Source of the DNA: a virus
Reading direction: 5' to 3' (one strand)
DNA: 23,252 nt
IMG/VR virus record: IMGVR_UViG_3300006802_000601
Span: 1 to 23,252 of that record
Position numbers and translations under genes: made by a program. Within the stretch, counting starts at the first letter, position 1, and the number at the start of each line of letters is the position of its first letter. Shown here in pieces: positions 12,897 to 16,102 of this stretch. Below the pieces are notes generated by a model. It did no database searches, was not told the origin of the DNA, and saw nothing but the letters and a program-made list of their open reading frames with translations.

Positions 12897-13307
12897 TTAA
12901 AATTGTCTAGTTACTTCAAAAACACTACTAACTCTTTTTCTACTATTAGGCTTAACCCAATCTTGAAGTGATCCATCAATATAAGTTGAAACGTGTCCAT
13001 TAGTCATAATTAAAAATATACCCTTAGTGGGTAAATCTCTCACAACTTGGTTAACAGTTTTATTAAAATGAGCTTTCTTAAAACGTGAAACAACACAATT
13101 TAAACTTTCTATGACTGTTAAGTATTGATCTATAAACAAACCTCTTTTATGCTTTCTATTAACTAGCTCTTTAGTCTTACCATAAGCTATCCCAAATGGA
13201 ACTTTACAACTAATAGCAATAGCCACAAGCGTACAAAAGTTAGTATCTTTGTAATGCTTGTGTCCTACCTTTTTCAATTGTTCATAAGTGTACTGTCTAC
13301 GTTTCAT
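12897..13307 (-). CDS. predicted papain-like cysteine peptidase/amidase, first leftward gene
   Basis: 136 aa; AAAGGG lies 9 nt before the ATG. C25 at the start of a hydrophobic helix (DTNFCTLVAIAIS) and H105 followed by D111 (TNGHVSTYIDG) are arranged like the Cys-His-Asp triad of papain-fold proteins. The strand before the His (KGIFLIMTNGHV) and the strand after it are as expected for this fold. The protein is basic elsewhere (NRKHKRG, NSRKRV). It is the first gene after the leftward promoter region, the usual place for host-takeover functions. Whether it cleaves a host protein, a conjugate or nothing at all cannot be told. Not an NlpC/P60 lysin by context. Confidence 0.6.
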   Translation of the reverse strand: MKRRQYTYEQLKKVGHKHYKDTNFCTLVAIAISCKVPFGIAYGKTKELVNRKHKRGLFIDQYLTVIESLNCVVSRFKKAHFNKTVNQVVRDLPTKGIFLIMTNGHVSTYIDGSLQDWVKPNSRKRVSSVFEVTRQF

Positions 13308-13439: not shown

Positions 13440-13479
13440 GCTATTATTCAAATATGGTTAGGAATCTATCACTAATTTG

Positions 13480-13608
13480 ATTAGTCTGGCTCACAATACT
13501 GCTCATAGGCTCTTCAGACAGTTTAAACCGATCAAGGCTAACTATATTACTCATTTGTTAGTCTTGGTTCTATCTTTTCAGAGAGCCTATATGTGTGAGC
13601 CATCTAAT
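13480..13608. other. large three-helix hairpin, possible structured RNA
   Basis: Three nested helices: ATTAG (13480-13484) with CTAAT (13604-13608) continuing as TGGCTCACA (13487-13495) with TGTGAGCCA (13594-13602); ATAGGCTCT (13505-13513) with AGAGCCTAT (13582-13590); CAAGGCTAAC (13533-13542) with GTTAGTCTTG (13557-13566), complete if one G-U pair is allowed in the plus-strand RNA. A TTG-started frame over it (13477-13680) is judged spurious. It could act in RNA on either strand or as cruciform DNA. Confidence 0.6.
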
Positions 13609-13785
13609 AGAACTGGTAATTTACAAACTAACAAACTTACCAACTATATTACAGGAATCGACCAACAAAGCAAGTATTAATATACTAATTATCATTAAAT
13701 AATAGTAATGATATTAATTAATATTACCTAATGATAATCATTAGTAAATCATTGATATGCAATACTAAAGTATGATTAACTGTAT

Positions 13786-13873
13786 TGCACTGTATTAGTG
13801 CATAATGGTACTATGTGGTGCATAACAGACACACGCACCAACACAGTACACAACGCACCAATGTAGTGCATAA
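13786..13873. repeat. short iterated motifs (GTGCATAA x3, ACGCACCAA x2)
   Basis: GTGCATAA occurs at 13798-13805, 13818-13825 and 13866-13873. ACGCACCAA occurs at 13833-13841 and 13853-13861, exactly 20 bp apart. TGCACT/AGTGCA at 13786-13802 forms a small hairpin. The spacing suits repeated protein-binding sites on one face of the helix. Confidence 0.5.
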
Positions 13874-13894
13874 CCGATTAAACTGGCATGATTA

Positions 13895-13908
13895 TTGCTT
13901 GCAAGCAA
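13895..13908. promoter_or_regulatory. 14-bp perfect palindrome over the leftward start site (candidate operator)
   Basis: TTGCTTGCAAGCAA is its own reverse complement. It sits immediately downstream of the leftward -10 box and covers the expected transcription start, where a bound repressor would block RNA polymerase. Confidence 0.6.
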
Positions 13909-13910
13909 CA

Positions 13911-13939
13911 TTTATACCACTATTGAATAACCCTGACAA
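13911..13939 (-). promoter_or_regulatory. leftward sigma70-like promoter (early operon)
   Basis: Minus strand: -35 TTGTCA (13939-13934, 5 of 6), 17-nt spacer, -10 TATAAA (13916-13911, 5 of 6). The expected start near 13904 gives a long leader of about 600 nt, including the large hairpin, before the first leftward gene at 13307. Confidence 0.65.
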
Positions 13940-14048
13940 CATTGTGGCATGATTATTGCATGACAAACTTGGCACAGTTGTTGCTTAGTTCAGTTTTATA
14001 TGGGGGGGTGGGGTAGTGCTGTGCTGTATAATTATGCTGAACCCACAC

Positions 14049-14092
14049 AATCACTAAAAAAGTCAAAATAGGACTTGACAAATCACTAAAAA
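14049..14092. repeat. 12-bp direct repeat at the rightward promoter (candidate operator pair)
   Basis: AATCACTAAAAA at 14049-14060 and 14081-14092, 32 bp apart (about three helical turns). The second copy lies within the spacer between the -35 and -10 boxes; the first lies just upstream of the -35 box. Confidence 0.6.
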
Positions 14093-14103
14093 TATGCTAT
14101 AAT
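14075..14103 (+). promoter_or_regulatory. perfect-consensus sigma70 promoter with extended -10 (packaging/structural operon)
   Basis: TTGACA at 14075-14080, a 17-nt spacer, and TATAAT at 14098-14103 preceded by TGC (extended -10). The expected start near 14110 gives a leader of about 210 nt before TerS. A promoter this close to consensus should fire strongly with host RNA polymerase unless repressed. Confidence 0.85.
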
Positions 14104-14126: not shown

Positions 14127-14167
14127 ATAGACAATAAAGACTCAGCACAGAAGTATAACGAACACTC
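14127..14167 (+). repeat. partial copy of the TerS 5' coding end in the leader
   Basis: 41 nt matching 14328-14368 at 35 positions. In the TerS frame it reads DNKDSAQKYNEHS against DNKDSTQSYDEHS in TerS. No start codon is present in the copy. See the finding on this echo. Confidence 0.65.
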
Positions 14168-14321: not shown

Positions 14322-14849
14322 ATGACAATAGACAACAAAGACTCAACACAGAGCTATGATGAACACTCAAAGAATGTTGTATCAGGAGTAACTTCTCTCT
14401 CTCCTTCCTCAACTGAGCCTGAGAAGAGGATTAGAACATATGCAAACAAAGCTAAACAACTAACACCTGTAGGCTCTAAACAGAAACGTAAGCGAGGTAG
14501 ACCCTCTAAGAAAGAGATGGAGTATGTAGCTCTTAAGACAAAGAGAAAGAAAAGCCCTTTAGTATCTAAAAGAGAAGAAACAGCCAAGATCAGAGAACTG
14601 ATGGCTAGAATGTTGATTACTAATGGTGATAGGGTTCTAAAGAAAACTATAGACATAGCTATGCAAGATGAACACCCTCATCAGATGGCAGCACTAAAGC
14701 TACTGATGGATAGAGCATTACCTGTATCTATATTTGAAAAGGATAAACAAGTTAATAAAGGTGTAACAATTAACATATCTAATGTAGCAACAGAACCCCA
14801 ACAAGTCACTATAGACTCTGTAGACTCTATAGAAACAGTAGAACAATAA
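14322..14849 (+). CDS. terminase small subunit (TerS)
   Basis: 175 aa from ATG 14322 (AGG about 9 nt upstream); a TTG at 14292 opens the frame further but lacks support. It lies directly before TerL and overlaps it (TAATG). The N-terminus is polar and disordered-looking; residues 55-64 (KRKRGRPSKK) resemble an AT-hook for minor-groove DNA binding. A helical core follows (REETAKIRELMARML, then PHQMAALKLLMDRALPVS), typical of phage TerS-like proteins that recognise the packaging site and stimulate TerL. Its first codons are echoed in the leader at 14127-14167. Identity rests on position, DNA-binding motif and the helical core. Confidence 0.8.
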   Translation: MTIDNKDSTQSYDEHSKNVVSGVTSLSPSSTEPEKRIRTYANKAKQLTPVGSKQKRKRGRPSKKEMEYVALKTKRKKSPLVSKREETAKIRELMARMLITNGDRVLKKTIDIAMQDEHPHQMAALKLLMDRALPVSIFEKDKQVNKGVTINISNVATEPQQVTIDSVDSIETVEQ

Positions 14850-16102
14850 TGGAATTAGATATTGAGTTGTTAAAGTGGCAACAGAGTGTGTGGAATGACT
14901 CTACAAGGTTTAAGGTAGTAGCTGCTGGTAGAAGAACTGGTAAGTCCAGACTAGCTGCGTATATGCTAATAGTTAATGCTTTACAGACTGAGAAGGGTCA
15001 TGTGTGGTATATAGCCAACACTCAGGGGCAGGCAAGAGATGTTATGTGGTCTACCTTGCTAGAGATAGCACACCCTGTAATAGAATCCTCTCATATTAAC
15101 AACTTACAGATTAAATTAATTAATGGTACTAAGATATCTCTAAAGGGTGCTGATAGACCAGAAACAATGCGAGGAGTGTCACTTAAGTTTGTAGTATTAG
15201 ACGAGTACGGCTCTATGAAGTCTGAAGTATGGGAAACTATTATCAGACCAGCTTTAGCTGACCAGAAAGGCTCTGCGTTGTTTATAGGTACTCCTTTTGG
15301 TCGTAATCACTTCTATGACCTGTATAACTACGCTAACTCTGATAAAGATGAAGAGTTTAAAGCATGGCACTACAGTTCATTTGATAATGAGTTACTAGAC
15401 CCTAAAGAGATAGAAGCAGCTAGAAAGTCTATGTCTAGCTTTGCATTTAGACAAGAATTTATGGCTTCGTTTGAAGCAGCTAGTGGTGGTATATTTAAAG
15501 AAGAATGGATTAAGTTTGATAGAGATGAGCCTAAAGATGGTAGATACTTTATTGCTGTAGACTTAGCTGGTTTTGCTGATGTAGTTCATGCTAACACAGC
15601 TAGAAAGAAAAGACTAGACCAGACAGCCATAGCGGTTGTTAAAGTAGACCAGAATAAATGGTGGGTTAAGTCTATTGAACATGGTAGATGGGGAACAAAA
15701 GAAACAGCACAAAAGATATTTCAAGCTGTATCAGACTATGAGCCAATATGTGTAGGTATTGAGAAAGGCTCATTAAAGAACGCTGTGTTGCCTTACATAT
15801 CAGATTTAATGAGAAAGTACAATAGATACTTTCGTATAGATGATGTTACTCATGGTAACAAGAAAAAGATTGATAGAATTACATGGGCTTTACAGGGTAG
15901 GTTAGAACATGGTAGACTCTATCTTAATAAAGGTAGTTGGAATATGGAGTTTTTAGACCAGTTGTTACAGTTTCCTAACCCACAAGTACATGATGATTTA
16001 GTAGATGCTTTGTCTTATATAGACCAAATACAGATACCAGAATATATGCAACACTATGAAGAAGAAGAGTTTGAACCACTAGACATAGTAGCAGGATACT
16101 AG
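14849..16102 (+). CDS. terL: terminase large subunit
   Basis: 417 aa. The ATPase domain has Walker A AAGRRTGKS (25-33) and Walker B FVVLDE (114-119), followed by the coupling segment FIGTP (145-149). The RNase-H-like nuclease domain has D238 (IAVDLAG), a middle acidic residue around GIEKGS, and D382/D383/D386 (HDDLVDALSY). It packages DNA into the prohead and cuts concatemers. The ATG shares a base with the TerS stop. The length is at the short end for the family, with both domains complete. The acidic tail (YEEEEFEPLD) may contact the portal. Confidence 0.95.
   Translation: MELDIELLKWQQSVWNDSTRFKVVAAGRRTGKSRLAAYMLIVNALQTEKGHVWYIANTQGQARDVMWSTLLEIAHPVIESSHINNLQIKLINGTKISLKGADRPETMRGVSLKFVVLDEYGSMKSEVWETIIRPALADQKGSALFIGTPFGRNHFYDLYNYANSDKDEEFKAWHYSSFDNELLDPKEIEAARKSMSSFAFRQEFMASFEAASGGIFKEEWIKFDRDEPKDGRYFIAVDLAGFADVVHANTARKKRLDQTAIAVVKVDQNKWWVKSIEHGRWGTKETAQKIFQAVSDYEPICVGIEKGSLKNAVLPYISDLMRKYNRYFRIDDVTHGNKKKIDRITWALQGRLEHGRLYLNKGSWNMEFLDQLLQFPNPQVHDDLVDALSYIDQIQIPEYMQHYEEEEFEPLDIVAGY

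Follow-up and report, generated by a model that had tools for sequence, protein, structure and literature searches.

The locus analysed here raises the question of which proteins read a short cluster of repeated and palindromic sequence located between the two gene arms of a phage. The source record, IMGVR_UViG_3300006802_000601, is tailed-phage DNA and was analysed as a whole (23,252 bases, in the following termed the window). The leftward arm holds small early-type genes, a primase/helicase, a DNA polymerase A, an exonuclease and a ribonucleotide reductase. The rightward arm comprises a gene in the position of terS, terL, a gene in the portal position and a capsid protein. Relatives of 34 and 38 kb indicate a full genome of about 40 kb with one control region of approximately 0.6–1 kb, from which both arms depart. 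The repeats and the palindrome are located inside this divergent region. Judged from its sequence, the phage appears to be an uncultured, podovirus-like virus of about 40 kb. Its TerL, PolA and portal proteins have only remote cultured relatives. Distant BLAST searches with the control region against cultured phages yielded no match, nor did Rfam and tRNA scans.

The reading preferred here, with a probability of roughly 0.8, is that the control region contains a cluster of sigma-54 promoters together with NtrC enhancer boxes in a layout like that of Escherichia coli glnAp2. Transcription would then track the nitrogen status of the host via the host's own E-sigma-54 and NtrC. The features are compiled in Table 1.

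Table 1. Features of the divergent control region and adjoining genes (window coordinates; sigma-54 assignments predicted).
Feature	Position	Strand	Remarks
First gene of the leftward (replication) arm	12897–13307	-	PHROG 3754, function unknown
NtrC-type box TGCACTGTATTAGTGCA	13786–13802		exact TGCAC-N7-GTGCA; about -177 of element C
Weak NtrC-like half site TGGTACTATGTGGTGCA	13806–13822		half GTGGTGCA invariant in six relatives; weak evidence
Degenerate NtrC-like box CGCACCAACACAGTACA	13834–13850		intact in L007 as CGCACCGCTGCGGTGCA
NtrC-type box CGCACCAATGTAGTGCA	13854–13870		no change among six close genomes; at about -109 relative to the expected start of element C
Sigma-54 -24/-12 element A, TGGCATGATTATTGCT	13884–13899	+	exact; start expected near 13910
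Reported palindrome	13895–13908		where elements A and B meet with their -12 ends
Sigma-54 element B, TGGTATAAATGTTGCT	13904–13919	-	inverted, leftward; one mismatch in the window
Sigma-54 element C, TGGCATGATTATTGCA	13945–13960	+	exact; start expected near 13971
Sigma-54 element D, TGGCACAGTTGTTGCT	13970–13985	+	exact; start expected near 13996; resembles glnAp2 TGGCACAGATTTCGCT
Sigma-70 promoter TTGACA-17-TATAAT	14075–14103	+	12 of 12 consensus positions; TG precedes the -10; second promoter of the rightward arm
Small-terminase-position gene (terS)	14325–14849	+	opens the rightward arm
terL	14849–16102	+	after terS; Pfam Terminase_6N/6C

Predicted sigma-54 elements at the repeats and the palindrome

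The direct repeat TGGCATGATTATTGC described in the first-pass annotation is present at 13884–13898 and 13945–13959, 61 bp apart, and so is the palindrome TTGCTTGCAAGCAA. A diverged third copy of the repeat, TGGCACAGTTGTTGC, was overlooked there; it lies 25 bp beyond the second copy. The copies are predicted sigma-54 (RpoN) promoter elements. Consensus sequences for RpoN and NtrC were taken from a published source, according to which the sigma-54 holoenzyme of E. coli selects TGGCACnnTTnTTGC (PMC8743547). The pattern TGGCAYR-N4-TTGCW, with its GG and GC doublets 10 bp apart, has three exact matches within 102 bp of the control region and none elsewhere in the window. Dinucleotide shuffles of the whole window gave an expectation of 0.033 exact matches against the three observed; when the intergenic region was shuffled 5000 times, three matches were never reached. 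Together with the spacer and degeneracy tests in relatives (see below), the three exact sites correspond to the -24/-12 signature of sigma-54-dependent promoters. Elements A, C and D point towards terS and terL, element B towards the replication arm. A conserved G tract (14001–14014) is located immediately past element D.

Close relatives carry the same cluster at the same location. In an alignment of six genomes, the elements vary at the degenerate positions of the consensus (C/T at position 6, A/G at position 7, and the spacer). Exceptions are one change of the last position (L007) and one in a -12 box (L012). Element B reaches the exact consensus, TGGCACAAATGTTGCT, in L004, L007 and L010. 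The sigma-70 promoter at 14075–14103 is invariant across the six genomes.

A leftward sigma-70 promoter, TTGTCA-17-TATAAA, had been proposed for this site, with the palindrome as a blocking operator and the direct repeats as looping or activator sites. Its letters are present, but it is missing from the promoter list of the consensus scan, and neither hexamer holds in close relatives. The -35 sequence TTGTCA occurs only in the window, while TATAAA is kept in the window and L008 and reads CACAAA in the other four relatives (L004, L007, L010, L012). The supposed -10 sequence sits inside element B, where the exchange of TATAAA for CACAAA restores the canonical TGGCAC and improves the match to sigma-54. 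Conservation had been named as a check: the sigma-54 half-sites are kept, but the centre of the palindrome varies (L010, L012). The palindrome reads as two facing -12 boxes instead of an operator, and the repeats as the promoter elements themselves. Candidate activator sites are located at 13786–13870, outside the interval reported. What persists of the earlier proposal is a regulated region in which the repeats are protein sites; the promoter class becomes sigma-54 instead of sigma-70, and the direction three times rightward and once leftward.

NtrC-type boxes and the probable origin of the regulators

Upstream of the rightward elements, two boxes resemble the NtrC consensus TGCACCAnnnTGGTGCA (PMC8743547). 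Each of them, TGCACTGTATTAGTGCA and CGCACCAATGTAGTGCA, deviates by one mismatch from TGCACYA-N3-TRGTGCA; the palindrome of NtrC promoters spans 17 bp (TGCACCA-N3-TGGTGCA). The core of the box at 13854–13870 differs in one centre base from a glnA box of E. coli; the box at 13786–13802 has one altered half-site base in L004, L007, L010 and L012. Both lie within the range of about 80–200 bp upstream of element C in which an enhancer site is sought. The gap between the box at 13854–13870 and the element at 13945 is 74 bp. In E. coli glnA, which carries TGCACCAATATAGTGCT, 73 bp separate the end of the box from the -24 element.

No gene for an activator (PF00158) or sigma-54 (PF04552) was detected in 25 related records, one of them of 38 kb and most of the family's records being fragments. 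Likewise, a sigma-54-like DNA-binding domain or an activator was absent from 74 related or tandem-site viral records. Since the searched phage records encode neither protein, both most likely stem from the host, in agreement with the earlier remark that no regulator gene is evident and that a host factor may act. The sites thus lie upstream of phage genes, and their regulator is not encoded in the records searched, mostly fragments, as expected for the exploitation of a host regulator. The host should carry rpoN and ntrC. Related TerL genes among contigs of metagenome-assembled genomes (MAGs) are scattered over unrelated phyla, probably through mis-binning. Seven such TerL relatives (60–64% identity) contain one exact sigma-54 site in total, most of them having little upstream DNA. 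The G+C content of family loci with elements ranges from 0.31 to 0.49, which makes several hosts likely.

Distribution among relatives and other viral contigs

The spacing of the half-sites was examined in 80 loci selected by TerL, with only the half-sites TGGCA and TTGC being forced. TGGCA-N6-TTGC had 112 matches in these loci; other spacers yielded 0–14 matches, except N4 with 43. The unforced positions recovered the degeneracy of sigma-54 elements: Y6, R7 and R8 were found in 78–79 of 79 cases, mostly with W16. Among relatives found by TerL only and with at least 1.6 kb of upstream sequence (n = 52, window included), the region upstream of terL contains one or more exact elements in 30 and at least two in 20; in 22 it has none. 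Upstream of terL, GCAC-N7-GTGC occurs 27 times in TerL-selected relatives, compared with at most one occurrence when the spacer is set to any other length between 1 and 14. Many relatives with sigma-54 elements have no recognisable NtrC box, and a search of clades without such boxes for another conserved enhancer palindrome gave nothing convincing. In the TerL tree, NtrC/sigma-54 modules are placed on deep and shallow branches, some of the loci having been collected by the motif itself.

The main direction of the elements varies by clade. Outside the clade of the window, they are directed mainly at the replication arm, and several relatives show a plausible first gene of this arm that begins 43–95 nt past an element. 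Clusters comprise two to nine elements. Preferred spacings are 25–29 and 35–37 bp for tandem elements, 18–21 and 32–34 bp for facing elements, and 26, 36 and 45 bp for elements back to back. They step by about one helical turn, which suggests that the bound proteins share one face of the helix. Six loci (L103, L114, L119, L130, L148, L155) hold eight to nine elements that alternate in direction and recur about every 47 bp. Among the genes of other loci, a small cytochrome c and a Mom-like DNA modification protein were noted in L244 (13600–13914 and 9588–10361, respectively) and a C5 cytosine methyltransferase in L241 (2661–3872).

Scans of 2.9 million viral contigs detected tandem sigma-54 elements in at least 119 contigs, against 4 when the spacer has 5 bases and 5 when the halves are reversed; contigs of one collection include near-copies, so that counts do not equal independent events, and the chance controls are other patterns and not evolutionary models. 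About 45 of the 119 contigs listed carry genes of the podovirus-like family. An NtrC box followed after 56–86 bp by a sigma-54 element was found in 60 contigs. A box centre of four bases, one more than in NtrC, gave none, and the reverse order gave 19. In these collection scans, NtrC boxes are situated upstream of elements three times as often as downstream. Relatives of the window phage account for 48 of the 60 contigs, and the gap is 65–75 bp in 48 of the 60. In loci chosen without the NtrC pattern, boxes stand upstream of elements in 23 cases and downstream in 18; such a near-equal placement is what divergent or facing elements would produce.

Tandem or many sigma-54 elements also occur in L126, L141 (41-bp period), L095, L172 (period of about 26 bp), L145 and L154, in which no homologue of the family's core genes was detected. 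Neither PF04552 nor PF00158 was present in those searched of L126, L141, L095, L145 and L154.

Proposed mechanism, alternatives and known systems

It is proposed that RpoN polymerase of the host waits in silent closed complexes, either on the elements facing terS and terL (A, C and D) or on element B, which faces the replication arm. Under nitrogen shortage of the host, NtrC in its phosphorylated form would reach these complexes from its sites at 13786–13870 by DNA looping and open the promoters at the expense of ATP. A gap of 4 bp separates the facing elements A and B, hence their simultaneous occupancy is probably impossible. The strong sigma-70 promoter at 14075 would offer the rightward arm a nitrogen-independent route. 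A point against the proposal is the density of the arrays, with up to nine elements, which is not known from bacterial sigma-54 promoters. A wider version of this reading is put forward tentatively, with the odds somewhat against it. It assumes a widespread lytic aquatic phage family whose whole programme is conditional on host nitrogen via host NtrC and E-sigma-54. Facing elements would decide between replication arm and virion arm, and infections would stall or proceed with nitrogen limitation.

Three observations keep two other uses of the elements under consideration at lower weight: the clade-dependent direction, the 22 of 52 relatives without exact elements, and the placement of boxes in 23 versus 18 cases. 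The elements may be genuine and yet serve another enhancer-binding protein in this clade, or chiefly a roadblock or repressor function while NtrC is inactive. Closed complexes of sigma-54 are known to be stable and silent, and other activators are likely in the many family members that have elements without NtrC boxes. For the window this is unlikely, as its clade does possess NtrC-type boxes, one of them invariant in six genomes. A little less likely is a sponge, in which the elements mainly titrate RpoN or its holoenzyme as the phage DNA multiplies, thereby silencing the sigma-54 regulon of the host instead of driving phage genes. Up to nine elements in about 200 bp, helically phased spacings and mixed orientations, including facing pairs unable to fire both, would suit such a sponge. 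However, titration requires no enhancer, whereas NtrC boxes accompany the elements at a glnAp2-like spacing, with the upstream bias of the collection scans, and genes begin shortly past an element in several relatives.

The motif could also be the site of a phage-encoded regulator sharing the specificity of sigma-54, or belong to the iterons of a replication origin. Tandem arrays with a period of 25–29 bp do look iteron-like, and the GC skew turns at the control region. This is improbable nonetheless: a phage-specific protein is expected to drift, but motif, degeneracy and exact spacer are identical in contigs without detected homologues of the family core genes. Furthermore, no fitting DNA-binding domain or activator was found in the 74 viral records, and NtrC boxes would be superfluous for an origin protein. 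The leftward sigma-70 promoter with operator and looping sites, finally, is hardly credible despite its literal presence in the sequence. Close relatives lose its hexamers and the palindrome centre but keep or improve the sigma-54 elements. It also leaves the third copy, the consensus degeneracy and the NtrC boxes unexplained. Sigma-54 promoters with NtrC enhancers are thus retained as the preferred explanation.

By mechanism, the region would be a promoter like glnAp2, the NtrC/sigma-54 promoter of glutamine synthetase, and by use it would resemble cases known from cyanophages. The NtrC boxes of window and E. coli are nearly identical (GCACCAATGTAGTGC and GCACCAATATAGTGC), the gap between box and element is 74 and 73 bp, respectively, and element TGGCACAGTTGTTGCT compares with TGGCACAGATTTCGCT. 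In contrast to the single element of glnAp2, the window shows a phage control region with three tandem elements and a facing one. T4-like cyanophages place genes behind sites of NtcA, the nitrogen-stress regulator of their host (Sullivan et al., 2010; PMC3037559). The likeness lies in phage genes being put under such a regulator, but NtcA is unrelated and cyanobacterial and its sites are scattered over myovirus genomes, whereas the window would combine NtrC and sigma-54 at one divergent region. Some cyanophage genes are under control of the host PhoBR system (Rihtman et al., 2024; PMC10976474). There, too, two-component nutrient sensing of the host acts on phage genes; the case differs in signal (phosphate), regulator (PhoB), a cyanobacterial host and the lack of sigma-54. 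Pelagiphages of the HTVC103P type possess the nearest PolA among cultured phages (49% identity), but their TerL and portal are distant, and they infect SAR11. To our knowledge, SAR11 is without rpoN. Vibrio phage 1.157.O, MW202640 and HTVC103P were considered as cultured comparators; their gene orders are unlike that of the window.

A precedent for sigma-54/NtrC control of phage transcription was not found in the open-access literature, to which the search was confined. What appears to be new is this combination, along with the arrays and the spread across the family. Nitrogen limits growth across much of the surface ocean. If the preferred reading is true, viral lysis would be linked to nitrogen stress outside the cyanobacteria, phage transcription built on sigma-54 would gain a rare case, and the host would be narrowed to bacteria with rpoN and ntrC. 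The dense arrays offer fresh material for studies on enhancer-dependent transcription.

Two further observations concern the flanks of the cluster. A 23-bp repeat of 91% identity (14127–14149 and 14328–14350) places a second copy of the beginning of the terS reading frame roughly 200 bp ahead of it. The leader of the leftward arm (13460–13640, minus strand) is conserved and shows unusually strong folding (z -4.3). Its pairing GTTCTAT/ATAGAAC is changed to GTTTTAC/GTAAAAC in relatives, and this pairing excludes the stem GGCTCACA/TGTGAGCC. The leader is possibly an attenuator with alternative structures.
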